Shown piece after piece: positions 7,628-60,646 of a stretch of DNA of 64,000 nt (positions are counted from its first letter, which is position 1; every line of letters begins with the position of its first letter). The stretch comes from Pyropia yezoensis (lineage: Eukaryota > Rhodophyta > Bangiophyceae > Bangiales > Bangiaceae): assembly GCA_009829735.1 (NCBI GenBank), contig CM020620.1, forward strand, positions 14,381,420-14,445,419, in the 5' to 3' direction. The position numbers and the translations under genes are program-made. The notes below the pieces were generated by a model, which ran no database searches, had not been told where the DNA came from, and saw nothing but the letters and a program-made list of their open reading frames with translations.

Positions 7628-7629
7628 TT

Positions 7630-16111: not shown

Positions 16112-16128
16112 CCCCTGCTGCTCCACCA
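16112..16128 (-). other. Primer-binding site of element D
   Basis: The minus strand reads TGGTGGAGCAGCAGGGG, identical to elements A and B although the LTR is unrelated. It starts four bases after the LTR end. Confidence 0.75.
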
Positions 16129-16132
16129 ATTA

Positions 16133-17084: not shown

Positions 17085-17553
17085 TGTGGCAAGACTGGCC
17101 CCACGCAGGGGGGCAGGACGCGCCATACTGGGGCGGGAGACAACTAGTCGGACCTGTTTCTCCCTTTACATTTGATCCCGAATTTCCCGAAGTCAGGGAT
17201 GCTTTGCTTCATAGTAAATCTAATATGGATTTGAGGGTTTTCTGCATTTTACTGTCTTGAATTGTCGTGTGGCCCGGTGGGCAGGTACTGAGGTGGGAGA
17301 TTCTGAGTGGCAAGATTCTGAGAGGACCCTGGAGGGATAAGAATAGGGACAGCGGGGCTTGGCCTCGCTTCCCCGTCCCGACCAAGAAGCTGTTGGCCGA
17401 CACACCATCATCTTGTTTACTGGTGTGGGGACTGCCCCACAGCAGGGATAGCGTGTGTGCGACTTGCACTTCTCTCAGTTCCCCCGACACGGGAGGCAGC
17501 CCTTGTGCACCGCCCCAACTTGGGTGCCGCGTGCGCGAGTGCTTTTTGCCGCA
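17085..17553 (+). repeat. Diverged 469-bp LTR of the A/B family
   Basis: It starts TGTGGCAAGACTGGCCCC and ends TTTTTGCCGCA, and aligns along its whole length with the A and B LTRs, with many substitutions in the first 150 bases. A primer-binding site follows at 17556-17572 (TGGTGCAGCAGCAGGGG, one change). About 40 bases of the A/B leader remain, then the similarity is lost, so this is the truncated 5' end of an older or sister element. Confidence 0.85.
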
Positions 17554-29718: not shown

Positions 29719-31306
29719 CGGCTGCCCGCGGCCGTGGCGGCCGCGCCGGGCGGGCGGTGGGCCCGGCGCGCCTTCGAGGCGGCTGTGGCGGCCGCCTCCG
29801 CCACAGCCGCCTCTGCCGCCGCGGGCCCGTCGTGTGACGAGGACGACGTGTACGCGCTGGCGCCCCCCCCCCGCGAGGGGGTGTCCCCTGCCCCTGATGG
29901 GGCGGCGGCCGCCACGGCGACGGGCACGGCCGCCACAACAACGTTGCCCGGCCACCCGCGGTTCCTCTCCCCCGCCGACGGCGTTGGCGGCAAGCGCCCC
30001 AACATTGTGGACGTGCTGCGCTCCCAGGGCCTCGTCGAGGCGGTGACGGGGGAGGGGGACACGCTGCGGGACGCGGCGCGGGAGCCCCTTACCGTGTACG
30101 TAGGGTTTGACCCGACGGCGGACTCGCTGCACCTGGGCAACCTGCACGGCATCCTGACGCTAGCGTGGCTTGCCCGCGCCGGTCACAAGCCGGTGGCGCT
30201 GGTGGGGGGCGCCACGGGGCGGGTGGGCGACCCGTCGGGGCGGTCGACGGAGCGGCCGCTCCTCGACGGCGCCGCGATACAGCGCAACCTGGACGGCATC
30301 GCCGCCAACATCCGGCAGGTGCTCGACGCGCAAGGCGGGGCGGGAGGGGAGTCCGTGGTTGTGCTCAACAACCACGACTGGCTCGGTGGCACCTCCTTCC
30401 TCGACTTTTTGCGTGACGTTGGCAAGCACACCTGCGTCAGCGGGATGCTGGCCAAGGACACGGTGCGGACGCGCCTGGCATCGGACGATGGGATGAGCTT
30501 TACGGAGTTCACCTACCAGCTGCTCCAGGCGTACGACTATGCCTACTTGTCCGACCCGCCCCACAACGTGCGGGTGCAGGCGGGCGGGTCGGACCAGTGG
30601 GGCAACATCACCGCCGGCACGGAGCTGACGCGCAAGCTCCGCGGCGGCCGTGTCGTGCACGGCCTCGTCTTCCCCCTCCTCACCCGCTCCGACGGCAAAT
30701 AGGTGCGCAAGAGCGACGCGGGCGGTGCCACGTGGCTCACCGCCTCCAAGCTTTCGCCCTACGAGTTTTACCAGTACTGTGCGAGTGCCCGACGCGGACG
30801 TGGTCGGCTTCCTCCGCTCCATGAACTTCCTCCCGTTGGAAGAGGTGGACGCCATTGCCGCCGCCGCCGCCGCCCCCGGGGCGGTGCCCAATGGTGCACA
30901 GCGCCGGCTGGCCGAGGAGGTCACCCGCCTCGTCTACGGGGAGGCGGGGGTGGCGGCTGCGCTCGCCGCGACGGCCGTTGCCGCGCCCGGTTGCACCGGC
31001 GCGGGCGCCGACGCGCGCACCGCCGACGCGCTCTAGGCGATTGCCGCCGACGTGCCGGGCTCTGTGCTGACCCGCGCCGACGTGGTGGGGCGCTCTGTCG
31101 TCGACGTGATGGTCGCTGCTGGCCTGCAGTCGTCCAAGGGGGAGGCCCGCCGGCTGATCAAGAATAGGGGGGCGAACGTCAACAACGCCAAGGTGCCCGC
31201 GGTGGACGCGGTGGTGGGGGTGGCCGACGTTATTGACGGGCGGCTGCTGCTGCTGGGAGCGGGGAAGGAGAACAAGATGCTCGTGTGGGTGGTGCCATCG
31301 AGTTGA
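29495..31306 (+). pseudogene. Tyrosyl-tRNA synthetase, bacterial/organellar type, disrupted
   Basis: The catalytic core reads VYVGFDPTADSLHLGNLHGI (HIGH motif as HLGN), GGATGRVGDPSGRSTERPLL, FTYQLLQAYDYAYL and QAGGSDQWGNITAG, all typical of class I TyrRS. The KMSKS region should follow SDGK but meets TAG at 30700-30702 and then reads VRKS. The frame resumes (WLTASKLSPYEFYQY), shifts near 30779, continues to a second TAG at 31034-31036, and ends in a clear S4 RNA-binding domain to 31306. A possible transit peptide starts at ATG 29495 (MLRTLTRHVMASPAFAPAG), but it is in another frame, separated by a GCG repeat tract. The enzyme would charge tRNA-Tyr in a plastid or mitochondrion. Two nonsense codons, a frameshift and a changed KMSKS loop argue for a decaying copy. 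Sequencing error at all sites is the alternative. Confidence 0.8.
29664..29711 (+). repeat. GCG trinucleotide repeat
   Basis: About 16 nearly uninterrupted GCG units lie between the possible transit peptide and the TyrRS core. Such a tract is prone to length change and may hide a frame change. Confidence 0.8.
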
Positions 31307-36184: not shown

Positions 36185-36679
36185 ATAGCCTCACCAATTT
36201 CTACATTGAACAGCACCCCCCCCCCCTCCCCTCGCCTTCACTCTTCTCGCGTCGTTCTCCTCGAGTCATCTGCGAGAGCTGCCCGAGGAAGCCACGCGCC
36301 GACGCCGCCATCAAACCCCGTATGTAGATGGCGCCCCCTCCTCACCCGCATAGCGCACCCTCTCCACCATTGTATATCTCCGCTAGAGTGCTCCTCATGG
36401 AGGTCCAAAAACGTCAGTCCTACACGCCGCTCCCTTCACTGCATGCCAGATAGATACATAGCGAGCAGGAAAAGTACTCAAATATTTCAAACTTTTCAGG
36501 TGTTACGGGAAGCTCCAATAAAAAGAATCAAAAGCGTCCCTAATCAAAACACAAATCTCGCATGTGCATGGCACCCGAGCCTACTCCGATGACCATGGGC
36601 TCCGCACAGCACGCCTGGGCCGCTAGTGTCTAGTCTACCTCAAATAAAGGCTCAAATGAGCCGGTGCTGAGGCTCAAAT

Positions 36680-37148
36680 TGTGGCAGTATTGACCCCCAG
36701 GCAGGGGGGCAACACGTGCCATGCAAGGGGCGGCAGGCCACTAGCCTGATCCGTTCCTCCCCCTGCATTTGGGTCCATATTCCCTAAGTTTGGGATAGTT
36801 AGCTTAGTAGTAAATCCAACTTGGATTTGAGGGTTTTCTGCATGTATCGTCTTGAATTTTCGTGTGGCCCGGTGGGCAGGTGCTGGGGTGGGAGATTCTG
36901 AGTGGCGAGATTCTGAGGGGACCCTGGGGGGATAAGGGGAGGGACAGCGGGGCTTGGCCCTGCGTCCCCGTCCCGACCAAGAAACTGTTGGACCACACAC
37001 CATCCTCCTGTTTGTCAGTGGGGGGTTTGCCCCACAACAGGGACAGAGTGTGTGCGACTTGCACTTCTTCCGGTTCCCCCGACACGGGAGGCAGCCCTTG
37101 TACACCGCCCCAACTTGGGTGTCGTGTGTGCAAGTGGTTTTTGCCACA
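36680..37148 (+). repeat. 5' LTR of element B (469 bp)
   Basis: It starts TGTGGCAGTATTGACCCCC and ends TTGCCACA. It differs from the 3' LTR at about eight positions. Confidence 0.92.
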
Positions 37149-37150
37149 TT

Positions 37151-37167
37151 TGGTGGAGCAGCAGGGG
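37151..37167 (+). other. Primer-binding site of element B
   Basis: TGGTGGAGCAGCAGGGG, two bases after the LTR. Confidence 0.8.
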
Positions 37168-37267
37168 ACAGAGGTAAACTTTACCTCCGGGTGCACCCGG
37201 GTGTAGGGGGCCCTCTGTCTCAGAGGAACGGTGGACTTGGACCGTGTCATACGGATCGTCAGCCAAC

Positions 37268-39214
37268 ATGGCTAGTTCGGACCCCCCGTCATCCGGGGAG
37301 TACACGGGTGACGCACGTACTTCAGTGCCTTTGAATACTGGGGAGACACAGGTGGGTTTACCCGGGGTCGCAGAGGGACTAGAGGTCCCTCAAGCCAGCA
37401 GGACTGGAAGTGCAGGCGGGCAACAGGCCACCCCGACTCAGTCGGGAGTTCACTCGGGTGACACTTCTGATGTGGGTGGGCCGAAGTCTGGCCACCATGT
37501 GGTACACTCAACGGGAACGTCCCAAGGGGTGAGGACTGTCCCCGCGGGTTCCACTCGGGCTGGAGCCAACTTTGGCTTGGAGCCGTCGCCAACTAGGCTT
37601 TCGGAGGACGGCGGACCTCCGTTGGTCGGCGATGGGCTCGCGCCCATGCCCCCGGTTGAGACCCCTGAGGAACGTGGGTACCCCTCAGGTGGACTCCCGG
37701 AGGCGGACCGAGACTCAACTGGAGTCGCCAATCCACTCCTCGCGGAAACTGTCCGTCGGGAGGCAACCAATGTGTTGCGGCAGACTTTGCCGGACCTGGT
37801 GGTCACGATGACGAATACAATTCTGAATCAGATTGTGGCGAGTTTGCCAGATGGCCTTAATGTCCAGACCGGATCGGGGCTTTCGAGCCCGCAGGCGCCG
37901 GGGGAATCCCTCCTCACGCCTACCTCTGGTCGCCCCGAACTGGGGGCGACACCTGTGACTCCCAACGAGGGAGCCACACCATACTCGGTGGGGCGTACGC
38001 CCTTCATGAGGGAGTTCCCCCCGGAAACGCCGGCGGCTACACCAAGCGCGCCGCGCCGGACTACAGGCACTGAGGGTGAACTTACCCCAGTGCCACTGCG
38101 GCTATTCCCTCAACGTGAGGTGCCGCCCAAGATCCAGGTAGCCAACCCGGTCTACCAGAGGATCTTTGACTGTGAGACCTACGCCCTCCACAACAAGTCG
38201 GTGGCGTATGGTCCTGACCAGGCCCGAGCCATGGGCCGTGCCAAGAAGAATGCATTTCACTCTTTTGGGCACAAAGCGGAGTGGGATGGAACTCCCCCCC
38301 TCCGTGTCTTTGAGTTCCTACGTCGTTTCACAAAAGCCTGTGACGACAATGCCATAAGTGAAGGCATGGCTTTCTACATGCTACAGGAGTTTACGAAGGG
38401 AGACCTGCGGACAGAACTTATGTCCGTCATGCTCAGCTCCTCAAGTGGAGGCGCTGGTGAGGTGACGTCCTATTTGGAGCTCGTCAACCGGTTGTTGAGA
38501 GCCATGGTTGATGAAGCGGCGCTGGCTTCTCAAGTCGAGGAGTTTACGCAAGCCCATCAGGAAGAGGCGGAGGACGAGTTGTCCTTTGCGGAGCGAGTCC
38601 GTAAGCTCAACAATCTTTGTGGGTTCCTTCATCCACAAGCTGTGGTGAAGAGTCGGTTTGTAGAGGGGCTCCATTGGTCAGTCCGGATGGAGACCCGGGA
38701 GCATAACACTGCCCGGGCGACCCTGGCCGAGTTGGCTAGATTCGCCTACCGCAGAGGCGAGGCCTACCGCAAGTTGCGGGAGGAACAACGCCAGGAGCGT
38801 CAGTCCGAGTTGGCCAAGGAACGGGAGGAGGCGCGCCAGGCCAGAGAGTTGAGAGAGGCACGCCGTTTCCGCAAGGAGAGGGTGGTAGCTGCCGCGGGAA
38901 CTTCCCAGGGTATCTCTTCGTCTTCCCCAGTTGGGAAGACCTCTCCGGGAACTGACAATCGGTGTTGGAACTGCAACTCCGATGGACATTGGGCATATGA
39001 TTGCCCCATGTTGAGTAAACGCATCCAACAACTTGTTCGGAATGCGAGTAAGAAGTCGGCTACGAACGAAGTACGTTCACGCCGCGAGGGTGGGTCTCGA
39101 CCGGTGGTGGCGGTCGCCACACCCTCGGTGAAGGGGGCGGACACGTCGTCCTCGGACTCGTCGTCTTCCCCTTCGTCCTCAGATTCGGACGCCAAGTCGG
39201 CGGGAAACGAATGA
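37268..39214 (+). CDS. Element B Gag polyprotein (648 aa)
   Basis: The ATG at 37268 (AACATGG context) is preferred over an in-frame ATG at 37244 because the same start is used in copy A. About 270 Pro/Gly/Thr-rich residues precede a capsid-like helical region (PLRVFEFLRRFTKACDDN, then SYLELVNRLLRAMVDEAAL). A long charged helix follows, rich in Arg and Glu (RKLREEQRQERQSELAKERE), then a CCHC zinc knuckle CWNCNSDGHWAYDC (38963-39004) and a Ser/Asp-rich tail. It would form the particle and bind the RNA genome. The frame is intact. Its TGA overlaps the pol ATG (ATGA, 39211-39214). Confidence 0.9.
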   Translation: MASSDPPSSGEYTGDARTSVPLNTGETQVGLPGVAEGLEVPQASRTGSAGGQQATPTQSGVHSGDTSDVGGPKSGHHVVHSTGTSQGVRTVPAGSTRAGANFGLEPSPTRLSEDGGPPLVGDGLAPMPPVETPEERGYPSGGLPEADRDSTGVANPLLAETVRREATNVLRQTLPDLVVTMTNTILNQIVASLPDGLNVQTGSGLSSPQAPGESLLTPTSGRPELGATPVTPNEGATPYSVGRTPFMREFPPETPAATPSAPRRTTGTEGELTPVPLRLFPQREVPPKIQVANPVYQRIFDCETYALHNKSVAYGPDQARAMGRAKKNAFHSFGHKAEWDGTPPLRVFEFLRRFTKACDDNAISEGMAFYMLQEFTKGDLRTELMSVMLSSSSGGAGEVTSYLELVNRLLRAMVDEAALASQVEEFTQAHQEEAEDELSFAERVRKLNNLCGFLHPQAVVKSRFVEGLHWSVRMETREHNTARATLAELARFAYRRGEAYRKLREEQRQERQSELAKEREEARQARELREARRFRKERVVAAAGTSQGISSSSPVGKTSPGTDNRCWNCNSDGHWAYDCPMLSKRIQQLVRNASKKSATNEVRSRREGGSRPVVAVATPSVKGADTSSSDSSSSPSSSDSDAKSAGNE

Positions 39215-42200
39215 CCGTTGGAGCTGGTCGTCCGAAGCTCACAACGGCAGCCTCGGCCAAGTGGGTCAAGAGGACGAATCAACCGTGCCGGATACTGCGG
39301 CGACCAAAGGGAGTCCGCCCACCTCGGGTCGGACTCCCCAAGAACGTAAACCCACGTCGGGTCATCGCGGTGCTGACGGGTGAGAACTTCCAGGTGGCTG
39401 GACGGGTGCAACTTGCCCCCGGCCGCGCCTGTTGTGCCCGTATCGTACTTGATACCGGGTCAGGAGCCTCCTTGATACGCAAGTCGCTATTACCAAAGGA
39501 GGTGAAGCTCCAACGCTGGAGGTCTAAAGCTGACCATCTGATCGATATCAATGGTGGGGTACTTCCCATCATGGTGCCGTGACCCTACCAACTAGGTTGG
39601 GGACCAATGAGGTCGACGTGACCTATGGTGTAGTTGAGAATATGTCGGTACCCCTGCTTCTGGGTACCCCTTATGTCGTAACACAAGTGCCTTTGATTTG
39701 TGGCCCTGAGTACTGGGTCAAGTTGATGAATGGGGAGACTATCCCCATCCTTGGTAAGGGAAAGTCTGTGGCTCCTGTGACAGTCTCACAGTCGAAGCCT
39801 GCTTGCTCTGTGAGGGAAGGGTTTACTGCTACCCTGCGTTCAGCCCGTAAAGTCACGTTGCCCCCCAACTCGGTGGCGCACGTTGATGTTGTAACTGATT
39901 ATACGGGGAACGGGTTGGTGCACCCTTACCCCCGTCTTGCTCGCAAGCACCAAGTGCATGTTGCCCTTGGCACGATGGACTCCAAAGCCGGAGTCCCGTG
40001 GAGGATCCAGGTGCTGAACCTGAGCTCGTCGCCCAAGTACTTCAAGTCGGGAGCCAAGTTCGGCTATATCGACCAACACGAGGGACCGGTAGTAGCGGTC
40101 ACCCTCAACGCGGGCGCAAGTAGCGACCCGAAGTCCGGAAAGGAGAAGCATCAAGCCAAGTCGGCCGCCTCTCCTCGGCCCCATGTGAACATGGAGGGTG
40201 TTCCATCCAGATTGGGGGTTCAAGTTGAACGCCTCTTGGACCAATATCACAAGTTGTGGGATGGTCAATTGGGACTCATGAGAGCTACCCAACACCGGAT
40301 CGAGTTGAAGCCCGGTGCACCCCCTATACGCCAACAACCGTATAGGGGAGGACCCCGTTCAAGGGCCCTCGTTAAGGAGCAAATTGCTCGCATGGAGGCC
40401 CTCGATGTGATCGAGGCCAGTAACGCCGAGTGGGCGAGTCCGGTGGTTATCGTCCCCAAAGTTGATGGGACCCCCCGGTTCTGTATCGACCACCGTAAGC
40501 TCAACGAGAGCACGGTGAAGGACAGTTATCCCCTACCTAGGATGGACGACTGTCTGGACTCTCTGGGGGAGGCAAACGTGTTCTCTAACCTGGACTGTAA
40601 CGCGGGGTACTGGCAAATTCCCATTGCCCCGGAGGACAGGCATAAAACTACCTTTACCTGTCACTGTGGTACCTACCAGTGCAAGCGCCTACCGTTTGGT
40701 CTGTGTAACGCGCCGGCAACTTTCCAGCGCGCTATGGACATGATTCTGGCCGGAGTACGGTGGCAGATCTGTCTTGTGTACCTAGACGATATCATTGTGT
40801 TCTCCCGAAGTCCGGAGGAACACATTGGCCATCTTGGCCAGGTGTTCAAGCTACTTGCTGACGCCGGTGTGTCGCTGAAGGCGAGTAAGTGCCACCTCTT
40901 CACTCAAGAGGTGGAGTACTTGGGACATGTTGTCCGTCCGGGGCGTCTCAGTGTTAACGAGAAGAACTTGAGGGCCATTCGTAAGGCTCAGTACCCCCGG
41001 ACCCAGACCCAGATGAGGAGCTTCCTCGGGATGTGTAACGTGTACCGACGTTTCACCAAGGGCTTCGCCAAGGTGGCGAAGCCGTTGAATGGGCTAGTGA
41101 GCTCAACGCTACCGAAGAACCTGCCTCCCCCAAGTCGGGTGGAGCAGGAATCCTTTGAGACTCTTCGGGACCTTCTGCTGAAGCCCCCCATCTTGGCTAT
41201 TCCCAGGTTGGGAGGCCACTACATCCTGGATGTGGACGCTAGCTACGACCAACTTGGTTGTGTGTTGCTTCAGCAGCAGCCGGACAAGGAGTACTTGCCG
41301 GTGGGATACTTCAGTAAGTGGCTGACCTCGGCCGAGAAGAACTACGGAGTCACCGAGTTGGAAGGACTCGCAGTGGTGTGGGCGGTGACGTCACTTCGTC
41401 ACTACCTAGAGGGTGAGAAGTTCCTCATCCGCTGTGACCACTGCGCGTTGCAGTTCATCTTTAAGACGGACTGTACGAACACTCGTCTCAATCGGTGGAG
41501 GGTGCGACTGGCACCCTTCAACTTTGATATTGAGTACCGACCTGGCAGGCAACATGCCCTTGCCGACGGCCTCTCTCGGGTACCTACCGAGGGGCTGGAC
41601 ACTAACCCAGTCGATGAGGACATCCCCATCGTGGGGGTAGTCACGCGCTCGGGTCAGGCGTTGAACCCCGAGGCGCCAGGGAACAAGAAGTACTTGCCCC
41701 TGTCCCTGGACGAGGTGGTGAAGGCCCAGGCCGAGGATCCCTTCTGCAAGTCGCAGAGGGATACACTGGATACAGTGGTGGAGACGCGTTTCTTTCTGGG
41801 AGACGATGGCCTCCTCATGAGGAGGGGGGTATTCCAAGGGACTGAACAACTTGTCGTCCCCGCATCCCTCAAGGACAGTATCCTTGAGAGGGAGCATAGC
41901 GCTCCCACGGGTGGACACCTGGGGTCTAGTAAACTGTACCAGACCCTGAGGACCAGATACTACTGGCCGTCCATGGTGGTGGACATCTATAGTTGGGTGG
42001 CTGCCTGCACAAGTTGTGCACAGAACCGTCTGATGGAACGGCGGCCTAGTACGGCTATGCTATTGTTCCCGGCCAAGGAGCCCTTCGCCGCGTTGGCAAT
42101 GGACATCCTTGGGCCACTGCCAGTGACCGAGGAGGGCAACCAGTACCTCCTGGTCATCTGTGACCGCTTCACGAAACTTACGCGAGCGATCCCACTCGCA

Positions 42201-43193
42201 GAGATCACGGCCATGTCGGTCGTGTCAGCCTTCCTAGATCACTGGGTTGCCGCATATGGCATCCCAGATAGTACACTATCGGACAATGGACCGCAATTTG
42301 CGTCTGTACTGTTTCAGGGAGTGCTGGATATGTTGGGGGTTAAGGCAAACTATGCCACCCCCTACCACCCACAAACTAATGGGCAGGTGGAGCGCTTCAA
42401 CAAAACTATTGTTAGGCAGCTGCGCCACTGTGTGAGTGAGCACGTGAAGACGTGGGACCAATACATTTCTATCCTTACTACTGCCTACAATTCGCAGGTT
42501 CACTCATCTACTGGGGAAGTACCCCTCGCTTTTGTGACCCCCCGTCGCGTGCGGTCTATTGCCGTGCGGCGGTCGCTCCCAACTAGGGAGGGTGGTGGCA
42601 GTACGCCTACTCCTACTGAGAGCAAGGCGGAGTTCGCTGCTAGGCTTGAGAACCTCATCTCTAAAGTCAGGGCTGAGATGGATAAAGCACAGAAGCGCTA
42701 CGAGCGTACCTTTGACAAAAAGGTGCGCAATGCTAAGCATGTCCCCGAACAGGGTGACTGGGTGCTGGTTCACTCACACACCCCAACGGGGGGTAAGTTG
42801 GTATTCCAGACGAAGGGGCCGTACCAGGTCCTTCGTACTGATGGGCGGCGCTTCACCATCGAAAGTGACGATGGGGTCCGCACAGTGAACGGACAGGACG
42901 TGGTCAAAGTTGCACCACCGCCTGCAGGCGACCCAGCTTGGGCGCGTGCTTTGGAAGCGTGGCGCCTCCCCTCACTGCCTGCGGCCAAACAGGGCCCGCA
43001 GGAGTACGTGTTCGATAAGTTCATCGACCACGGATGGGATGAAGACACTGACCGCCTCATGTTGAGGGTGCGTTGGTTTGGCTACAAAGCCAAGGACGAT
43101 ACGTGGGAGTATGTGGAGGACCTTCCCGCTGAGAAGGTCCGGGCGTACTGTGCCCGGAATGAGATAGACCCTAACAGCCCTTCCTCAACGTGA
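39211..43193 (+). pseudogene. Element B pro-pol with one frameshift
   Basis: It begins at the ATG overlapping the gag stop. The protease motif DTGSGASLI starts at 39451. Near 39570 one base is missing compared with copy A, giving a stop at 39582. The rest is one open frame from 39579: reverse transcriptase (YLDD 40779-40790), RNase H (DVDASYDQLG, ELEGLAVVWAV), integrase zinc domain (H..H, CTSCAQ), catalytic D at 42102, D at 42282 and E at 42390. A C-terminal chromodomain follows (EYVFDKFIDHGWDEDTDRLM, VRWFGYKAKDDTWEY), which in chromoviruses steers integration to marked chromatin. The long intact frame of 1204 codons suggests a recent lesion or an assembly error. Confidence 0.9.
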
Positions 43194-43304
43194 GGGAAGG
43201 CCGAGCAACAGTGCCAAGAGAATGCTTCAAGTCGCAGTGGTACGCAGAGTGGCTTTTAACTACAGCCCTAACCCTCACACTCGCACAACAAAGGCAGCTG
43301 CCAA

Positions 43305-45419
43305 CTAGGCACGCATGCTAGACTCTCCCACTCCACGGCCCTCGCCCTCACGTGGAGGCGAGCGGCGAGACCCACGCCGATAACGGTCTCCACTCGTTGG
43401 AAGGGGCGGCGGCTCCAAGTCAGAACCGTCGCGCCCTTCACGGTCGCGCAAGTGGCGCCGACCGTGGCTACTCTTCTGCCTGGTCTTGCGCGCAAGTTTG
43501 CGACGCAGACGCTGGACAGACTCCGTCTCCGACGGGGTAGAGGACTCCGAGACAGTATAAGACAACTCGTCTTCCGACACGGAGGGAGAGCGCCGCGAGT
43601 GTCGGCGACGACGGCGAGGAGGCGAGTATGCCCGGCTCGCGCGACGTTTGCCACGCCCAAGTGGGGCAGGCTGGGGCATAATAGCCCCAATGCGAGCCAA
43701 CTCGGCTGTCATAAACTCCGCCACCGACTCGCAAATCGCGGTCGCCACTGCAGTACGAGCTCGCTCCTCAAGTTGAGGAGTCTCGGAACTTTGGAGGGTT
43801 GCGGTCGACGCGGCCAACCAGGAAATGGTGCGCACCAACGTGGTGATCATCATCTCCGAGGTTAGAGGCGTGGGCGGTAACACCAACTTGGGGTATACCG
43901 TCAGGAGGGTGGCCCCCAAGTTGGGGGACACCGGGGTGGATGACTCCACGGCCACACTGATCGGGATGTTCCCGTGAGGCTGGAAAGGAACAGGAGGAAG
44001 CGGAGGGGCACGCCGAGGTGGCGGTACCCGGGTGTAACTGCGACCCCGACTTGGGGCCCCCGCAGTAGGTTGAGTCATATGGTCATCATATGAGGGCACA
44101 GCCATAACTATGGGCTTGTCCGGGGGTGGCGCAGTGTGGCGATCCACCCCCGGGGCATACGGGTAGTCCCCGATGCCCAACCCCTCTCGTAGGACCACAC
44201 GGCCGTCGTGAAGTTCACGAGCGACCCACACGAACTGGCGAAGTGCGCCATCGTCCTTGGGCCCACGAGTGGGGCGGCGCAACTTGTGCTCAATGCTCTC
44301 CCACTCGATGAACTTATGGAGCCGGAGCATCTCCTCAAGTAGAGTGAGTTGTCCTGATGAGCACCCCTCAGCAACTAGCTGAGGGGTGAGCTGTTCCAAA
44401 CCTTGAATGAGCCGGAGGGGGAGATGCCAGAGCATCCCCCGCCGCTGAACACAAGACACCCAGGTCGACATGACCTCGAGGAGCCACTGGGTGGCCAACA
44501 TGGCCCACACCAGGTGATCAGGGCCAGCCGTCAACATGACGGAGCCGAAGTGGTCAAGCAACCGTGGCAGCAACGCCGGGAACCCGTAGGGGACCTCAAC
44601 TTGAGGCCACCACTCGGGCTTCTTCGGATAGTACTGCTCCTTACTGGCAGCAGACTGTTGAGGAAACTCAAGTTGAGCCGAGGTCACCAAGTAGGGACCT
44701 CGCCGGAAGTCTTTCTCCATCCGCACATCAAAGTGATGAATGTGCGGATCGGCCTCGTGGAGGTACGGGGGGCGAGTTGCCACCGCGTCCCAAGTAAAGG
44801 TCGGCAAGTCGCCGGGACCCGGGATAGTTCCCCCGCGGTCCACCATGGCCTTGGCACGCTGAACGTCCTCAACCTCCTCATCGTCCAGGAAGGCAAACTG
44901 GTCCGTCCTGAAGCCGGCAGGGAACCCGACCCTACGGGGACACTTCTCCCGTAGGCGGTCCCATACCCGACCCATCGCTGCGCCGAGTCGGCCACAGCGA
45001 AGAACAGTCAACCCCTTCTCATAGAGAGGCCAAGCGGGGTAAAACCACCGCCCCAAGGCCTCACGCGGGACAACTTGTCCCGCCTCCGGGGGAGATCCCG
45101 CCGTCAACCCAAAGCCGGTTGACGCGGGAGTCCCATCCCCCGGAGCGATCGCGGAGCCCCCGCCGGAAGTCCCGGCGGGTGCTGCACCGTAGGTGGTGTC
45201 CTCCATACGCTCATCTAGAGAGTCCGTCTCCACTCCCGGGGTCGCCATGGCCCTCCCCAAGTTGGGGAGAGACGCTCTGGCTATCGCGGCACGAGACCCG
45301 CCTCGAGTTGAGGGGGACTCGGATCGTGGGTATACGGGTGGCCTCCCCAGCGTGGGGCGGCCCAGTGGAAGGTGAAGGGGAGGTGGTGGTGATGGTGAAG
45401 TGTGAACTGAGGAGAGCAA
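43305..45419 (-). CDS. Antisense accessory ORF of element B (704 aa), unknown family
   Basis: It lies between the pol stop (43193) and the 3' LTR (45587), on the strand opposite to gag-pol. Starts are possible at 45419 or at an internal Met near 45249. The first about 120 residues are Pro/Gly-rich. A globular segment (about 185-425) contains the landmarks WWPQVEVPYG (270-279), FG (291), W305, W312, GMLWHLPLRL and DYPY (418-421). A Pro-rich linker, a second helical stretch (about 520-585) and a basic Arg/Ser-rich tail (RRRRRHSRRSPS and similar) follow. The segment aligns colinearly with the antisense ORF of element C. I recognise no domain. The RS-rich tail suggests RNA or nuclear binding. The long intact frame in a copy with a mutated pol suggests coding function. 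Confidence 0.75.
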   Translation of the reverse strand: MLSSVHTSPSPPPPLHLPLGRPTLGRPPVYPRSESPSTRGGSRAAIARASLPNLGRAMATPGVETDSLDERMEDTTYGAAPAGTSGGGSAIAPGDGTPASTGFGLTAGSPPEAGQVVPREALGRWFYPAWPLYEKGLTVLRCGRLGAAMGRVWDRLREKCPRRVGFPAGFRTDQFAFLDDEEVEDVQRAKAMVDRGGTIPGPGDLPTFTWDAVATRPPYLHEADPHIHHFDVRMEKDFRRGPYLVTSAQLEFPQQSAASKEQYYPKKPEWWPQVEVPYGFPALLPRLLDHFGSVMLTAGPDHLVWAMLATQWLLEVMSTWVSCVQRRGMLWHLPLRLIQGLEQLTPQLVAEGCSSGQLTLLEEMLRLHKFIEWESIEHKLRRPTRGPKDDGALRQFVWVARELHDGRVVLREGLGIGDYPYAPGVDRHTAPPPDKPIVMAVPSYDDHMTQPTAGAPSRGRSYTRVPPPRRAPPLPPVPFQPHGNIPISVAVESSTPVSPNLGATLLTVYPKLVLPPTPLTSEMMITTLVRTISWLAASTATLQSSETPQLEERARTAVATAICESVAEFMTAELARIGAIMPQPAPLGRGKRRASRAYSPPRRRRRHSRRSPSVSEDELSYTVSESSTPSETESVQRLRRKLARKTRQKSSHGRRHLRDREGRDGSDLEPPPLPTSGDRYRRGSRRSPPREGEGRGVGESSMRA

Positions 45420-45573
45420 GCTGCCGAGTGGGCAAGCTTGAGGAGAGGGGCGGTCAACGTGACCGCCTCCACATCCGCGTTACGTACTCGATGGGGGACA
45501 GCAAGTCGCGCCCCCAACGCCGAGACGTGCGTTTACGCACCCCCTCACAGGGCCGACCGGGTCGGTCGGTACT

Positions 45574-45586
45574 GAGGAGAGGGGAG
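45574..45586 (+). other. Polypurine tract of element B
   Basis: GAGGAGAGGGGAG lies directly before the 3' LTR, as needed to prime plus-strand DNA synthesis. Confidence 0.8.
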
Positions 45587-46055
45587 TGTGGCAGTATTGA
45601 CCCCCAGGTAGGGGGGCAACACGTGCCATGCAAGGGGCGGCAGGCCACTAGCCTGATCCGTTCCTCCCCCTGCATTTGGGTCCATATTCCCTAAGTTTGG
45701 GATAGTTAGCTTAGTAGTAAATCCAACTTGGATTTGAGGGTTTTCTGCATTTATCGTCTTGAATTTTCGTGTGGCCCGGTGGGCGGGTGCTGGGGTGGGA
45801 GATTCTGAGTGGCGAGATTCTGAGTGGACCCTGGGGGGATAAGGGGAGGGACAGCGGGGCTTGGCCCTGCGTCCCCGTCCCGACCAAGAAACTGTTGGAC
45901 CACACACCATCCTCTTGTTTGTCCGTGGGGGGTTTGCCCCACAACAGGGACAGAGTGTGTGCGACTTGCACTTCTTCCGGTTCCCCCGACACGGGAGGCA
46001 GCCCTTGTACACCGCCCCAACTTGGGTGCCGTGTGTGCATGTGGTTTTTGCCACA
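45587..46055 (+). repeat. 3' LTR of element B (469 bp)
   Basis: Same ends and length as the 5' LTR. It is followed at 46056 not by host DNA but by the integrase C-terminus of element C. Confidence 0.92.
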
Positions 46056-46528
46056 AGAAGGTCAAGGGTCCCTATCGTATCGTGGACCGGGACGGGCACA
46101 CATTCACGGTTCTGGTAGAGGGGATCTGTGACAGGGTAATCAGTGACCATGTGGCCCGGGCACCCACGCCTGCTGGACACACTGACTCCATGTCCCGTTT
46201 ACACGGGCCACAAGACCCGGTGGTACCTATGGACTACGAAGACTCAGGCACCCCTTTTGTCTGGGAACGTTTTGTGGGCCACGACCGGGACAGTGATGGG
46301 AACCTATGGCTCCTGGTCCGCTGGTGGGGGTACGCCGAGTCCGAGGACACATGGGAACCGTGCCATAAGTTCGACAGGGCTAAGGTTGTTCAGTACTGTG
46401 AACGTGTTGGTACCGAGCCCCCACTGCGGGAGGAAGAGGCCGTGGCACTACTGGAACCCTGTAAGGCTATCTATGCTGTGTGGCCCTGGAACCTTGAACC
46501 GGGTGCGGATCTGTGGCCCCGTTATTGA
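46056..46528 (+). pseudogene. Element C pol C-terminus with chromodomain, 5'-truncated
   Basis: The frame enters from the B LTR and reads KKVKGPYRIVDRDGHTFTV, the integrase C-terminal module (B has TKGPYQVLRTDGRRFTI). A chromodomain follows: FVWERFVGHDRDSDGNLWLL, then VRWWGYAESEDTWEP. It ends at TGA 46526-46528. Sequence divergence from B shows this is a different chromovirus family. Everything upstream is missing. Confidence 0.85.
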
Positions 46529-46663
46529 CCCTGAAAGGGAAGCATAAGGGCAGGCATGATGGTCCGTCAATGGAACGAAGGGAAAGTCATCGGGAGGGGG
46601 CAACAAAGAGGTCAGGGGTTCAACTCGGGTAGGTGGGGAAGACATCTAACCCACGGGAGGAGT

Positions 46664-46669
46664 TTTATT
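46664..46669 (-). terminator. Candidate poly(A) signal for the element C antisense ORF
   Basis: The minus strand reads AATAAA about 280 bases past the stop of the antisense ORF (46947). It lies between the two convergent reading frames. It could equally be chance. Confidence 0.35.
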
Positions 46670-46946
46670 GATAATGATTTTTTGGAATGGAGATTTACTT
46701 CGTCCCCCTTGGATATGAACTCCCCCGTTTCCTCCCCCGTTCCCTTTAGTTCCCCATTTCCCAGTCTGGGCTAGTACGGGTCCCATTGAACCAGCTATGC
46801 GGCTAAGTCGGAAGGAGGTTCCTACGGTCAACACTGAAGGAGGGGTCCCAAGGAAGCTGACAAACAAAGAGACTTTATGAGGTCTTGGATCAACATCATA
46901 TGCAAGAACAACCCATGGTCCCCCGGGTCCCTCCCCTCTGTGTGAC

Positions 46947-48686
46947 TCACTGGTAACGGGCCCGGCTCTCGGCACGCGGGTCAGTGTCTTGGTCCATATC
47001 GTCCCGACCTCGGACCCGGGAGCCCTCACGAACCCCATGCCAACTCTTACGGGCCTCCTCCTCGGCCGTGGCCAACTCTGACCCCAGGTCCCCACGGACA
47101 CCATTACGGTCCACGATCGCCAACAGGCCCTTGTAGTCCGGCGTCGTGGAACCCGCCTGGACCCGGGTCCATTCAGCTACACGGGACCCAATGTTGACTG
47201 TGGTATGGAGGGAAGCCGATAGCAAGGGCCCCACGTGAGCATGGGCCAAGACGTCCGCGGACCCGCCAAAGAAACTACGGAGCCCCAGAACGGTTGAGGT
47301 AGCCAGGTTGCCCTCAAGGTCCCGAAGTTCCTCATCAGGTAACTCGCCATGGGCCAACAAGTTGGCCACAAAGACGGTACGGCTTCCCAGCGCAGGGTCA
47401 CGTTGAACAAGGGAGCCCGACGACCGGGCACCAGGGGCACCAGGGGCACCAGGACCACCGGACCCACTTCCAGGCACAATCTCGTCCGACTGGCCCACGT
47501 TCCCGTCCTTGGGCCCGACAAACTCCCGCGCGCCCAAGATGTCCGTCGAGTAAGGAAGGTCCAAAGGAGCCAGGTCCTCGTCCACGAGCGCTGCCCAGGT
47601 CCCTTCCCGGGTCTCGAACCGTACCAAGACGTAGGAAGCACGGTCCTTGCGGTTGGAAGGCGCCTGACCCAAACGTGAACGGAGTCCAGGGGCCCCGACC
47701 ACCCGGTCGCTAAGAACCATGAGTGCCTTGAGGTCCCGCGCCGCTCCCTCGTCCACGCCACCGGGACCCTTGCAGATATCAGGGACCCCGACACGCTCGA
47801 TCCAGGTCCGAAGGAGACGAGGAAGGAGACACATCTCACCGGAACCACGGGCCCGCTCCAGCGTATAAAGGGCACAGTTCGTGGCCCACTCGGTCCGGAA
47901 CACGAACCAGGCAAAGGGGTCCGAGGCACGAAGGAGGTCCCCGAAGCAGCACTGGACCGGGGGCAGTTCCACCAGAGCCCCAAAAGGAACCTCAACGTGA
48001 CCGAACCAGTGCGGTACCCGGAGGTAGTGGAGCCCACGGAGGGTAGCCGGGCAACTCAGGAGCTCTTGCTGGTGCCAGCCGACCAGGATCCCATTCTTGT
48101 CCCGATGTAGCCGACTGATCACAAGGTCCCCATGGGACGGCTTGAAGGAAGTAGGGTCCAAGTAGGGAGACGGGAGCACGATGTAGTCGGGACTTGGGGC
48201 CGCAGGCAGGGTCCCCTTGGTGACCTCGTCCCGGATGCTCGTGAACCGCTCCACGTACCCAACTTCTCCCGCGTGCCGGACCACCGTTATCGACAGGGAC
48301 CGATCGGCCTTAACCGGGATCCGCGCTTGGACCATCGCGGTCATCTGCTTCCGGAACGCGTTCCCGGGACAGGACCCGTCCACGACTCGAAGGACCTTAT
48401 GGGCCAGGGTACCGGTGACCCAACCGCGGGCCTCTTCCCGGCGCCAAGCGGTGACCGTCTCGGGACCAAAGTCCTCGGGTACCGTGCCATGGACCGTGAC
48501 GTACGCTTGACCCGCACCACGTTCCTCTTGTTCCATGTAGTCCCCACCTGAGCCCGCGACCGGTACGCCTTGACCGCCGGGAGCCCCTTGACCCGCTGCG
48601 CCTTGAACGATGGGACCGCCTTGGGCCCCAGGTACCGTCGAGCCCTTGCCAGCCGACGCGCTCTTCGCGGCGCGGCCGGGCTCCAT
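46947..48686 (-). CDS. Antisense accessory ORF of element C (579 aa), same family as in element B
   Basis: It is opposite to pol, starting at ATG 48686 and stopping 418 bases beyond the pol stop. After about 60 Gly/Ala-rich residues comes a globular region. Landmarks match the B ORF in order and spacing: HWFGHVEVPFG (226-236), FG (248), W260, W267, GEMCLLPRLL, and LPYS (377-380). VEVP-to-FG is 17 residues in both. The following segment SYVLVRFETREGTWAALVDE also aligns with B. Unlike B there is no Arg/Ser-rich tail; the end is acidic and charged. No known domain is recognised. Confidence 0.75.
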   Translation of the reverse strand: MEPGRAAKSASAGKGSTVPGAQGGPIVQGAAGQGAPGGQGVPVAGSGGDYMEQEERGAGQAYVTVHGTVPEDFGPETVTAWRREEARGWVTGTLAHKVLRVVDGSCPGNAFRKQMTAMVQARIPVKADRSLSITVVRHAGEVGYVERFTSIRDEVTKGTLPAAPSPDYIVLPSPYLDPTSFKPSHGDLVISRLHRDKNGILVGWHQQELLSCPATLRGLHYLRVPHWFGHVEVPFGALVELPPVQCCFGDLLRASDPFAWFVFRTEWATNCALYTLERARGSGEMCLLPRLLRTWIERVGVPDICKGPGGVDEGAARDLKALMVLSDRVVGAPGLRSRLGQAPSNRKDRASYVLVRFETREGTWAALVDEDLAPLDLPYSTDILGAREFVGPKDGNVGQSDEIVPGSGSGGPGAPGAPGARSSGSLVQRDPALGSRTVFVANLLAHGELPDEELRDLEGNLATSTVLGLRSFFGGSADVLAHAHVGPLLSASLHTTVNIGSRVAEWTRVQAGSTTPDYKGLLAIVDRNGVRGDLGSELATAEEEARKSWHGVREGSRVRGRDDMDQDTDPRAESRARYQ

Positions 48687-48974
48687 GGGACGGGGTAACG
48701 GGACACGGTGTGGGAAGGTGGGGTTCCAAGGGAAACGGGTGCGTGGGAACGTTGGAAAGAGGAACGGGTAGAGGGAACGATTGAGGAGCCCACGGGGAAG
48801 CGTAGCGGGGAAGATGGTGCGTTGGGGTCCCGGTCGCGGGGAACGAGGGAGCCCGTGAGGGCCCTCTTATCCCTGCGCCCCCATTCCGACGGAACCCAGG
48901 CTGCGCCCGTGTGCCGCCGGCCCCCGTCCGAATCCGGACGCCACCTCACCCACCCCACGGGCCGAGCGCCACAT

Positions 48975-49902
48975 GGGGAGGGCGAGGGGAGGAGGAATGC
49001 AGGCGGGCGGCCGGCGCGGGCTGCGCCACACCCCCCTAGTTACCCTGTGCGTGGCCCTCGGTCCCTCCCGTACCGCCCTGGTCAGTCTGCCCGGGCCCCT
49101 GTGCCTCGCGACACTTGTCGGGGGGGACCCTGTTTGCAGACACTGGCCCCACGTCCCGTTCGTTTTGACCCTGGTGTAACCCTGTCGGACCCTTTCCAGT
49201 CCCTCTCCCCGGTTTCCCTGTTGGCCGGCGGGACGCTCGGCCCTAGTGAGGGGGCCATGTGGCGTTGTAGCCCTCAGGTACCGTTGGGACCCGGTAGGCT
49301 GACTTGGGACCCGGCTGGCAGCGTTACGTGGAACCACGCGCTGGCTTGGGATCCCTGCATCGGTGGCCCGGAGCAGTGGCGGCACGCCCGGTGCCCTGAT
49401 TGGTCCCCCCGGAGAGGAGGACTTGCCGGGTTGGGGCATACTGACCTTCGGGTTATTTGTTTGATTTTTCGCATTTGTTTTCCTTGCGTGATTTCGTGTC
49501 TTTCCCCTTTTTCCCACTGGGTTTTTTTTGGGGATTGACATTTGTGTGTGGGGGGATTTCGCTTGCTTTTCGTGTGTTGGCCCGGTGAGCGGCCGGTGCC
49601 TTGCTGGCACTTGGCCCGCTGGGGGCGCCCTCTGGGGGCCTCGCTCTGGGCCCCTGGAGGGGCCAGGGGGGGAGGTTCTTGAGGGGTGCTCCGGGGTTCT
49701 CCCCGGGGCCATCTTGTAAAATCAACAGTGCTTTGGGTTCCTTCTCCCTCGGGCTTTTGTCCTGTTTACCTTTGCCTCGTATCGTGGCGGGCGAGTGAAC
49801 CAGCAAGGGCTCTTACCTGTTCCTTCCTGGGCTTCGGACTGTGGTCTCTGTGTGTGTGTTGGTGGTTTGTGGTTTCGGGAACCTGGGTTCCATTACGCTA
49901 CA
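48975..49902 (+). repeat. Candidate polypurine tract and 3' LTR of element C
   Basis: A purine tract (48975-48997, one interruption) lies upstream of the C antisense ORF start and is followed by TGCAGG. A TG...CA span from 48998 to CTACA at 49902 would make an LTR of about 905 bp. The distal half is T/G-rich and unlike coding DNA. With no second copy in the window the limits are guesses. Confidence 0.25.
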
Positions 49903-50435: not shown

Positions 50436-51575
50436 ATGGGGGGCAACGGCAGGACCCCCCTATGCCCCCAGGAAGTCGGCGCCATCAAGACCATGGTCGC
50501 TTACAAGAAGTCCAATAGGGCCCTCGCCACCGCGCTCGGCATCCCCAAGACGGTGGTCAGCTACCACGCAGCCAACGCGCGGCGGGCGGCGGCCACTGCG
50601 CGCCAGGACAACCGAGGTCGGCCGAAGCTCCTCAGCCCTCGAGAGCTGCGCGGGGTCCGCCGGGTGGTGGACGGCAACGCTTTCGCCTCAACGGCGGAAA
50701 TCGCCGAAAAGGTCAACCAGGGACGAACCAGCACTGCAGTCGGGCCCCCCCTCCGCAAGGTGTCCGTCAGCACGGTCCGGAGAGCCATCAAGGGCCTCGG
50801 GCTGTCATCCTGCGCCCCCGTGCACAAACCGATCGTGTCAGGCATCAACAAGAAGAAGCACCTGCAGTGGGCCAAGGAGCATCGGTCTTAGACTTACCAG
50901 TGGGCTTGGGTACTGTTCTCCTACGAGAGCGCTTTCCAAGTGCTCCAGCCAAAGTCGCGTCGCGTGTGGCGCCAGTCTGGCGAGCGCTTCGCGCCCGAGA
51001 ACCTACGACCCACCTTTAAGAGGGGACGCGAGAGCGTCATGGTCTGGGGCGCCTTTTCTGCGCTCGGTCGGACCCCCCTGGTGCGGATCGTGGGGTCCAT
51101 GACGGGTGCTTCCTACGTTGAGCTCCTCGAGACCGTGGTGGTGCACTACATGTTCGCCGACTACGGCACGCCCGACGGTGCCATCTTCCAAGAGGACCTG
51201 GCGCCGTGCCACACGGCCAAGGTCGCCAAGGCCTGTGAGGCGGCGCTGGGGCTCAAGGTGTTGCCATGGGTGGGGCAAAGCCCGGACTTGAACCCGATTG
51301 AGAACGCCTGGGCTGAGCTCGAGGGACGCCTGCGGGCGCGCCCAGTGGCCCCCAAGACGAAGGACGAGCTGTTCACTGCCCTGCAGGAAGAGTGGGCGTC
51401 GATACCGAGCGCCTATTTCAAGCAACTGACCGAGAGCATGTGCCGCCGTGTGCGGGGGGTGGTGGCAGCGAACGGGTCCGGCACCCAAGTAGAAGTGCGT
51501 TTCTTGCTCTGGAAACGGACGGTCGCATCGAGTCAATATAAATCTCAGGATCTGACAGTTGGGGTGGGCAAGTAG
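50436..51575 (+). pseudogene. Tc1-type DDE transposase, inactivated
   Basis: The N-terminus has paired helix-turn-helix features (NRALATALGIPKTVVSYHAA, then VSTVRRAIKGLG). TAG at 50889-50891 interrupts the frame, which then resumes in the same register. The first catalytic block reads FSYES where the family has FSDES, so the first Asp is missing. The second Asp is in FQEDLAPCHTA, and the third block is SPDLNPIENAWAELE. The C-terminal tail (DELFTALQEEWASIPSAYFK) is typical. The enzyme would cut and paste the element at TA. The stop and the Asp-to-Tyr change together make it non-functional. Confidence 0.85.
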
Positions 51576-57643: not shown

Positions 57644-60600
57644 ATGGGCAGCGGCGGCGACGCGCCGGCCCCCCCGCGGCCGCCGTCCCCCCCCCCCCAC
57701 CCCTACGCCATCCTGGGCGTCCACCCCACCGCCGACGCGGCGGCCATCCGCGCCGCCTACCGCCGCCGCTGCCTGACCCTCCACCCCGACAAGCTGCCGC
57801 CGCCGCAGCGGGCCGCCGCGGCGGGGCGGTTTGCGGAACTGGCCAACGCCTACCACGCCCTCCGCACGCCCGCCGCGCGGGCGGCGGTCGACGCGGCGCT
57901 CCCGCCGGCGGCATGGCGGGTGACTGACGCGGACGTTGGGGAGGGGGGGGGCGCGGCGGGCGGGGCCGCCAGCGGGGGGCGGCGGACGCCGCCGCCGCCG
58001 CCGCCGACGGCAGCAGCAGCGGCCGCAGCGGCGGCGGCAGCGGCAACGGCAGCGGCAGGTGGCGGCGGCGGCGGTGACCCGACGACGGCAGAGGCGGCGA
58101 CAGCCACCGCAGCGGCGGCGGCGGCAGCGGCCGCAGCCGCCGCGTCGGCAGCGTCGGCAGCGACGGCCGCGGCGGCAGCGACGGCGCCCCCACCGGCGGC
58201 AGCGGCGGCGGCGGCGGCGGCGCCCCGGCGGCGGGGCACGCCCCCGCTGTCCCGGTCTGGGGGTTCCACCCGCTCGGCGGGCGCCGCGACGTTTGCGTCG
58301 GGCCTCGGCGGCGGCGGCGGCGGCAGCAGCAGCAGCAGCCGCCGGACGCCCGCCTCCCCCCGCCACTCCCGCTCGCGCAGCGGCGGTGACGGCGGCGGCG
58401 GCGGCGGCAGCGGTGGCAGCGGCGGCAGCGGTGGGCGGCACCACAAGGCGCGCCGGTCGGCGGGGGCCGCCACGTTTGGCGCCTCTACCAGGCGGGGCGG
58501 CAGCAGCAGCAGCGGCGGCGGCAGCGGCAGCGGCGGCAGCGGCGGCGGCAGCGGGGCGCCCGCCGCCGGCAGCAGCGGCAGCAGCGGCAGCAGCACCCGC
58601 CGGTCGGGGGGGCGCCCCCGCGGCGGCGGCAGCAGTGGCGGCCGGTCCACCACCCCGCCCGCGGCGGCCGACAGCAGCAGCGGCGGCGGCGGCGACCGGC
58701 CGCCGCGGCCGACGCGGCGGCCCGCGGCGGCGTCGGCAACGACGCTCGCCGCCGACGGCGACGACCCCGTGGCGCCCACGACGGCATCGACCGCGGGGGC
58801 AGCGGCGGCGGCGCCGCCGCCGCCGCCGCCACCGCCACCGGCAGCGGCGGCCGGCGGCGGCGCGCCCGCAACGGCGCCGTCGACGGCCGCCGCGGCGGCG
58901 GCGGCGGTGGCGGCGGCCGACGCGGCGGCCGCCGACCGGCGGGACGCCGACGCCTACCGCGCCGCCTTTATCCGCTCCTTTTCCTTTGCCCGCCCCCGGG
59001 CGGGAGCGGCGGCCGCCGCCGCCGCCGCCGCGGCGGCGGCTGCGGCCGCGGCGGCAGCGGAAGGGTCGACGGAATCGACGACGCCAACGACAACGGCGAC
59101 AACGGCTGGGGGGGGTGCAGCCGCTGGTTCCGCTGCCGCTGTCGGTGATGAGGTGGGGGGCGGTGGTGGTGGGGCCGCGGCCGGCGGCGTGCTGGCGGCG
59201 GCGGCGGCGGCGGCGGCGGCGTCTGCCGGCAGGGAGGAGGGTGCGGCGGCGGCGGCGGCGGCGGCGTCGGCCGAGCCGTGGGCCATCCCCCCCGGCGGCC
59301 GCCGCGGCGTGCCGTCTGCGGCGGCGACCGTGCCGCCCGCCTCGGCAACGACGGCCGCAGCAGCAGCCGCGGCGGCAGCAGCCGCAGCAGCAGCCGCATC
59401 CGCGGCGGCAGCGTCGTCGCCCTCCCCCGCCCCCTGCCTCTCCCCCCCCCCCCGGTCGGCATCGTCCCCGACGGTCGTCCACGTGGAGCTGCCGCTGACG
59501 CTGGAAGAGTACGCGAGCGGCACGCGCAAGACCGTGGCGGTCCCCCCCCCCCCCCCCCCCCCCCGACGGCACCCCCCCCCCCACCCCCCCCCCGCCTCCC
59601 TCACCGTCCCCATCCTCCGGGGCTACCGCCCCGGCGACCTGGTGCGCTTCCCCGCCCCCCCCCCACGCCCGCCGCCCCCCACCCCACCGAGGTGGTCGTC
59701 ACACTCGCGGCGCTGCCGCACGCCCGCTTTGCGCTCCCCCCCCCCCCCGCCCCCCCCGAGGCGCTCGCCACCACCCTCTCCCTGCCGCTGGCCGACGCGC
59801 TTACCGGCTTTACCCGCGCCCTGCCGCTGCTGGGCGGCGGCACCGTCCTGCTGTGCGTGGCGGGGGTGTCCCCGCCGGGGGCGGTGCACGTGGTGGCGGG
59901 GGGGGGGCTCCCGCGGCGGGGCGCCGCCGCGGCGGTGCTGCCCCCCGGGGGGGGCGGGGGGGTCCGCCCCGACTGTGGGGACCTCCACGTGGTGGTGGAG
60001 GTGGTGTGGCCGCCGGCCGTCACCCCCGACGCGGCGCGGCTGGTGCGGGCGGCGCTCGCGCCGCGTGCGTATGGGGGGGGGGGGGGGGGGGGGGGGGGCG
60101 CCCCGCATGCCAGGGGTGGGGGGGGGGAGGGGTGGCGGCGGGAGGGGGGGCGGCGGCATCGTCGACGACGGCGGCCTTGACGGTGGGGACGGGGGGCGCG
60201 GGGGTGGCGGCGGTGGTGGCGGCGAGCCTCCCCGCCACCCGCGCTCCCCGTCCATGCCCGTCCGCGTCGGCGGCGGCGGCCGCCGCGCGTCGGCGGGCGC
60301 CCGGAACTACTCCATGATGGAGGGCCGCGGCGCCGCCGCCCGCGCCGCCGCCGCCAACGGTGGTGGCGGCGGTGACGGTGGCGGCGGCGGCGGCGGTGGG
60401 GGGAGGCGCCGCCCAGACGGCACGCCCGCCGCCGGCGGTGGGGGGATGGGCAAGGGCGACGGCGCCGGCGCCGGCGGCAAGGGCGACGGCACTGGCGGGC
60501 CTGCCGGCGGGGGGGCGGGCGGCGGCATGGCCACCCTCCGCGCGTCGACCGGCCGCGCGCTGCGGGCGGGGAGCCGCCGGCTGGCGGGCGCGAGCCACCT

Positions 60601-60646
60601 GCCAAAGATCCGCCACTTTTTGGGCGACGTCTTTGGCAGCTCCTGA
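57644..60646 (+). CDS. Type II DnaJ (Hsp40) co-chaperone with a very long low-complexity linker
   Basis: The J-domain lies at residues about 19-85 (PYAILGVHPTADAAAIRAAY, HPD at 47-49, FAELANAYHAL) and would stimulate Hsp70. About 500 residues of Ala, Gly and Ser follow instead of the usual short G/F linker. C-terminal domain I reads VHVELPLTLEEYASGTRKTV and VPILRGYRPGDLVRF (about 59477-59650). Domain II (VVVTLAALPHARF, LADALTGFTRALPLLGG, DLHVVVEVVWP; about 59692-60030) is in another frame, entered at a C-rich stretch near 59655-59690 and left at a long G run near 60067-60100. These look like homopolymer errors. There is no Cys-rich zinc domain, hence type II. The C-terminus is Gly-rich with a final basic segment. 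Confidence 0.8.
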   Translation: MGSGGDAPAPPRPPSPPPHPYAILGVHPTADAAAIRAAYRRRCLTLHPDKLPPPQRAAAAGRFAELANAYHALRTPAARAAVDAALPPAAWRVTDADVGEGGGAAGGAASGGRRTPPPPPPTAAAAAAAAAAAATAAAGGGGGGDPTTAEAATATAAAAAAAAAAAASAASAATAAAAATAPPPAAAAAAAAAPRRRGTPPLSRSGGSTRSAGAATFASGLGGGGGGSSSSSRRTPASPRHSRSRSGGDGGGGGGSGGSGGSGGRHHKARRSAGAATFGASTRRGGSSSSGGGSGSGGSGGGSGAPAAGSSGSSGSSTRRSGGRPRGGGSSGGRSTTPPAAADSSSGGGGDRPPRPTRRPAAASATTLAADGDDPVAPTTASTAGAAAAAPPPPPPPPPAAAAGGGAPATAPSTAAAAAAAVAAADAAAADRRDADAYRAAFIRSFSFARPRAGAAAAAAAAAAAAAAAAAAEGSTESTTPTTTATTAGGGAAAGSAAAVGDEVGGGGGGAAAGGVLAAAAAAAAASAGREEGAAAAAAAASAEPWAIPPGGRRGVPSAAATVPPASATTAAAAAAAAAAAAAAASAAAASSPSPAPCLSPPPRSASSPTVVHVELPLTLEEYASGTRKTVAVPPPPPPPRRHPPPHPPPASLTVPILRGYRPGDLVRFPAPPPRPPPPTPPRWSSHSRRCRTPALRSPPPPPPPRRSPPPSPCRWPTRLPALPAPCRCWAAAPSCCAWRGCPRRGRCTWWRGGGSRGGAPPRRCCPPGGAGGSAPTVGTSTWWWRWCGRRPSPPTRRGWCGRRSRRVRMGGGGGGGGAPRMPGVGGGRGGGGRGGGGIVDDGGLDGGDGGRGGGGGGGGEPPRHPRSPSMPVRVGGGGRRASAGARNYSMMEGRGAAARAAAANGGGGGDGGGGGGGGGRRRPDGTPAAGGGGMGKGDGAGAGGKGDGTGGPAGGGAGGGMATLRASTGRALRAGSRRLAGASHLPKIRHFLGDVFGSS

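Follow-up and report, generated by a model that had tools for sequence, protein, structure and literature searches.

Why should two different families of retrotransposon each carry a long open reading frame (ORF) on the strand opposite to their own genes? The question is raised by a 64,000-nucleotide stretch of the red alga Pyropia yezoensis (assembly GCA_009829735.1, contig CM020620.1, positions 14,381,420 to 14,445,419; hereafter the window). It contains two adjoining long terminal repeat (LTR) retrotransposons of the Ty3 type, elements B and C, each with an antisense ORF (asB and asC) between pol and the 3' LTR. Sequence comparison indicates that asB and asC are homologous members of one protein family that is older than the split between B and C, and the pattern of substitutions indicates that the antisense ORF is a real protein gene under purifying selection.

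The genome searched comprises 107.5 Mb, with three large contigs of 43.6, 34.3 and 29.4 Mb, and the window lies on contig C3. Repeats make up almost half of the genome and are chiefly LTR retrotransposons, according to PMC7423979. In the genome search with asC, 75 of 1857 first-look candidates were scored and at least 76 matches were obtained, the best 30 of which were used for the analysis of flanking sequences. Protein database searches scored at most 8000 candidates each. The element families that carry the gene are B, C, C' and D, with E as a possible further one.

Two antisense proteins with a common core

Both ORFs lie on the minus strand where the initial annotation had placed them: asB at 43305-45419, with 704 residues counted from a TTG, and asC at 46947-48686, with 579 residues from an ATG. 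An asB protein starting at the ATG at 45248 (43305-45248, 647 residues) is more likely, since a database relative, P0005, starts there and the genomic copy L034 shares the methionine. The host elements belong to different Ty3 families, as had been proposed, their pol products being only 44% identical.

The VEVP[YF]G motif that first linked the two proteins is genuine, with a span of 19 residues to a later FG in both. A second motif, given as G.M..LP.[RL]L, was slightly misspelt, reading GMLWHLP in B and GEMCLLP in C. The claim of near-equal spacing is also borne out: hhalign aligns residues 181-426 of the 704-residue asB frame (44142-44879, minus strand) with residues 140-384 of asC (47535-48269, minus strand), which are of almost the same length. 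This profile comparison, made with ten C-type proteins against asB, is significant (probability 95.9, E 6e-9, 237 columns), and the same C-type profile set against the Gag of element B as a control yielded a probability of 0.3 and E 0.21. A hidden Markov model (HMM) of the ten C-type proteins scored asB at 46.7 bits, the top score among 2000 shuffles being 7.3. Smith-Waterman alignment of the two cores gave 102, and none of 300 shuffles exceeded 56. BLASTP between asB and asC gave E 1e-7.

The proteins are made up of a variable N-terminus, a conserved core (about residues 140-390 in C) and a conserved C-terminal part, which at residues 436-579 has a ratio of nonsynonymous to synonymous substitution (dN/dS) of 0.14 in one C-C' pair. 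The last fifth of asB includes a basic stretch with a charge of +12 in 30 residues; asC has none so strong. No membrane span was found (best KD19 1.09-1.48). The one usable structure prediction, an AlphaFold2 model of the asC core (residues 110-395), is of middling quality, with a predicted local distance difference test score (pLDDT) of 55.5 and a predicted template modelling score (pTM) of 0.65, and is predicted to be mostly helical with a β hairpin. Structural searches with this model, PDB and BFVD included, returned no significant match. Nor was there a credible sequence match in Pfam, NCBIfam or PDB, in keeping with the initial annotation, which had recognised neither protein. At least seven database relatives (P0001-P0007) were found, of which the only one named by organism is a hypothetical protein from Pyropia vietnamensis.

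Selection on the antisense frame

In the G+C-rich window, long ORFs are numerous and overlap one another in several frames, and the length of an ORF is therefore weak evidence for a gene. The pattern of substitution is more informative. For 24 stop-free, near-full-length copies and the shorter L054, the pooled within-family Nei-Gojobori dN/dS comes to 0.31 for both C (21 pairs) and D (28 pairs) and to 0.42 for C' (36 pairs); values for single pairs lie between 0.19 and 1.27. Across families the ratio is 0.24-0.35, at a mean dS of 1.0-1.6 that is near saturation. A single B pair gave dN 0.018 and dS 0.047. Third codon positions vary most, with variable sites at the three positions numbering 39/46/94, 81/75/126 and 209/170/290.

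As a frame control, four alignments were read in other frames. The ratio of nonsynonymous to synonymous differences (pN/pS) is 0.33-0.48 in the antisense frame versus 0.98-1.53 in four other frames. The -1 frame, which mirrors the third positions, has 0.39-0.66 and 14-17 stops per sequence; the absence of stops from the antisense frame follows from the way in which the copies were selected. In codon usage, the antisense gene closely resembles gag and pol (r 0.75-0.90). With dN/dS well below 1 over many copies and a codon-position pattern that fits, the ORF can thus be taken as a real protein-coding gene under purifying selection, as had been suggested.

Though under selection, the antisense protein evolves faster than the products of the other genes of the element. 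Between C and C', the antisense gene has a dN/dS of 0.24 (63 pairs), versus 0.08 in both pieces of pol and 0.13 in gag (one element pair), pol being compared at similar dS and gag at lower dS. Amino-acid change in the antisense protein is consequently about three times faster than in pol at similar dS.

Carriers of the gene and their surroundings

Matches covering at least 500 of the 579 asC residues number 43 among the at least 76, and 24 of these 43 are stop-free: 7 of 13 of type C (93-100% identical to asC), 9 of 14 of type C' (62-66%) and 8 of 16 of type D (39-51%). A C-type pol end is convergent with the antisense ORF at 28 of the 30 top-ranking loci (partial at L014, L015 and L025). No convergent pol end was found at the other two, L013 and L018; at L018, this may be because a different chromodomain element adjoins the antisense ORF.

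The antisense protein diverges in the same order as pol. C and C' are 87% identical in pol and 65% in the antisense protein, C and D 76% and 50%, and C and B 44% and about 21-24%. Trees of the two proteins agree on the order of B, C, C' and D, although support is less than full at two antisense forks (93/99 and 88/95) and the row for family E in the antisense tree was in the wrong frame. A repeat tree made from the cores upholds the grouping of C with C' and gives no firm place to D. Family E, a third Ty3 family after B and C, has an ORF at C1:7014122-7016218 that is convergent with its own pol. It is possible that this ORF is related to asB, the sequence tests being mixed, some for and some not.

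The initial annotation had called both elements chromoviruses, a group marked by a chromodomain at the integrase C-terminus, and had placed both ORFs just after that domain. They do follow pol, but Pfam scores for Chromo in B and C are 19.7 bits (element B pol) and 17.9 bits (pol of the full C copy at L031), below the cut-off of 25.1. The D and E pieces had no Chromo match among those listed at E 0.01, and another element of the same genome, at L039, scores 54.5 bits.

Element B (36680-46055, plus strand) is a Ty3-type retrotransposon with a divergent, putative chromodomain, bounded by LTRs at 36680-37149 and 45587-46055 (98.3% identical, 8 mismatches in 469; repeats D3/D4) and with the termini TGTGGC...GCCACA. 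Its gag (37244-39214, plus strand) has a zinc knuckle (PF00098, E 1.6e-5), and its pol (39579-43193, plus strand) encodes reverse transcriptase (RT; RVT_1, E 1e-34), RNase H (RT_RNaseH), integrase (Integrase_H2C2, rve) and the putative chromodomain. The flanks at 36669-36679 and 46056-46065 show no target-site duplication (CAAAT versus AGAAG), and the element lies directly against the truncated end of element C. From these two features, we infer that the junction has probably been rearranged by recombination.

Element C is present in the window as a 3' fragment only, consisting of the pol end, the antisense ORF and the 3' LTR. The remaining pol (46056-46528, plus strand), cut at element B, encodes the last 157 residues, comprising an integrase tail and a chromodomain-like region, and is 93% identical to the pol end of the full copy at L031. 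The 3' LTR (49258-49902, plus strand) ends in CA and, over 643 bp (49258-49900), matches that of the full copy (L032) at 97.4% identity. Four full copies have LTR-to-LTR distances of 9512 and 9509 bp (C), 9435 bp (C') and 9485 bp (D), and their LTR pairs are 98.9-99.5% identical, the second C pair having been compared over 592 bp. The LTR pairs and pol ends of these copies, like B and C themselves, show the antisense ORF flanked by pol and the 3' LTR. With the pair of element B included, the LTR pairs compared are 98.3-99.5% identical, and these carriers have therefore been mobile recently.

When one C copy (L031/L032) is set against one C' copy (L035/L036), identity is highest in the LTR (94%), followed by gag (86%), pol (82%), the antisense gene (69%) and the gap between pol and the antisense gene (50%); dS amounts to 0.50 for gag and 0.86-0.94 for pol. 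That the LTRs are more alike than the coding parts suggests exchange of LTRs between families by recombination.

Element A, elsewhere in the window (7159-17547), also belongs to the B family, with 90-96% identity in matched stretches. No antisense gene was found in it; between its pol end and an LTR piece at 17248 lie the gag and pol start of another Ty3 element on the minus strand (13538-16046), 34-49% identical to C. On contig C1, two pairs of equal-scoring RT copies on one strand (39368555/39374759, 6.2 kb apart, and 23119020/23125666, 6.6 kb apart) look like tandem elements that share an LTR and are too short for an antisense gene. Beside element C, at 50436-51575, are an ORF that by eye resembles a helix-turn-helix part and a DDE_3 transposase ORF (E 1e-11), together a Tc1/mariner-like DNA transposon. 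The ORFs at 29734-30702, 57644-60646 and 60936-63296 we take, by eye, to be likely host genes for part of a tyrosyl-tRNA synthetase, a J-domain protein and a CCA-adding enzyme.

Possible roles and comparable systems

What might the antisense protein do? On balance, it seems probable that it is the product of an accessory gene of a red-algal Ty3 group and acts as a nuclear regulatory or counter-silencing factor, by analogy with antisense genes in other elements; as part of the same reading, the gene would probably have been inherited along with pol. An antisense transcript would start at a promoter that lies either within the 3' LTR or within the adjacent 340-570 bp. By their position, the stretches between gene start and LTR, 45249-45586 in B and 48687-49257 in C (both minus strand), are candidate promoter regions. 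In a pair of C and C' copies, this stretch is 76% identical versus 50% in the pol-antisense gap, and it adjoins the still more similar LTR. The initial annotation had suggested that the gene has its own promoter; a promoter within the 3' LTR that reads in reverse is just as possible. The resulting protein of roughly 550-650 residues would enter the nucleus and there control how the element is transcribed, exported or integrated, or counter silencing. The strongly basic stretch of asB and the lack of a membrane span count in favour of this reading, as does a dN/dS above those of pol and gag, which would suit a protein in contact with host factors.

The protein might also be directed mainly at host silencing, through small RNAs or chromatin, rather than at regulation of the element. 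The occurrence of the gene in several families fits this, as does a rate of amino-acid change about three times that of pol. Relaxed constraint accounts for the rate equally well, however, and the Pfam, NCBIfam and structure searches brought up no known suppressor fold or motif, making this alternative rather doubtful. The mostly helical prediction for the core could point to a second, capsid-like structural protein that enters the particle, but the lack of resemblance between the C-type profile and Gag, together with the lack of a significant PDB or BFVD match, makes that quite improbable.

Capture of a host gene as cargo is slightly more improbable again. Gene capture by retroelements is known (PMC7264820), but here the pol end accompanies the gene at nearly all of the best 30 loci, the gene predates the B/C split, and none of the at least seven database relatives is a cellular homologue by name, although most of the names are uninformative and P0004 lies on a 2.5-Mb contig. 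An extra ORF ahead of the 3' LTR also occupies the position of env, yet an Env-like or movement protein is very unlikely given the opposite strand and the lack of a membrane span. Just as unlikely is that the antisense RNA alone matters or that the ORF arose incidentally from the G+C richness of the DNA: the many long overlapping ORFs of the window would allow it, but the low dN/dS (0.24-0.42) and the codon-position pattern fit the antisense frame.

The regulatory reading draws on several known systems, whose likeness to the red-algal gene would be one of position and probable role. Among retroviruses, HBZ of human T-lymphotropic virus 1 (HTLV-1) is a regulatory antisense gene that is also located near the 3' LTR, but in a human retrovirus, and no sequence similarity is claimed. 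HTLV antisense genes are mentioned in PMC11963269 and PMC7264820. The latter also confirms that antisense extra ORFs are known in plant Ty3 elements, as the initial annotation had stated for Grande. GENE23 of Grande and aORF-3R of RIRE2 (maize, rice) have the same place and strand, a likeness by description and not by sequence, and GENE23 is reported there to be nuclear and transcribed from its own promoter. In the fungus Botrytis, brtn of Boty/BcGypsy1 is an antisense additional gene of a Ty3 element, likewise compared by description (PMC8365987 and PMC7264820). The Retand lineage of flowering plants has an antisense ORF with a Transposase_28 domain (PF04195). In HMM searches, whose filters drop most weak matches, PF04195 gave no match at E 10 in 12 family members or in the genome; moreover, Retand is a non-chromovirus lineage, whereas the red-algal elements carry a divergent chromodomain-like region. 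A regulatory role has been proposed for the Grande and Retand antisense proteins.

The initial annotation's suggestion of an undescribed accessory gene thus holds for the family, which looks undescribed in the literature searched, but not for the aORF-3R class of antisense additional ORFs, already known from Grande, Retand and Boty. Among the papers listed in the searches, none, judged by title and start of abstract, deals with antisense ORFs of red-algal elements, which is weak evidence of novelty given the thin coverage of subscription journals. Tentatively, an ancient, fast-evolving antisense gene with an undescribed fold could be a hallmark of one red-algal branch of chromodomain Ty3 elements (B, C, C' and D, possibly also E), absent from the other chromodomain elements of the genome.

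In practical terms, this is a protein family without a Pfam match, and it is worth masking in the annotation of red-algal genes, as the hypothetical protein of Pyropia vietnamensis illustrates. The function of the plant and fungal antisense extra genes is not settled, and the red-algal family, which is under selection, present in divergent families and recently mobile, offers a second comparable system in which to ask why elements keep a gene on the opposite strand. If the gene is indeed such a hallmark, antisense regulators would have arisen separately in elements of flowering plants, of fungi and of red algae and in retroviruses, which would point to a general advantage in reading one gene off the opposite strand.

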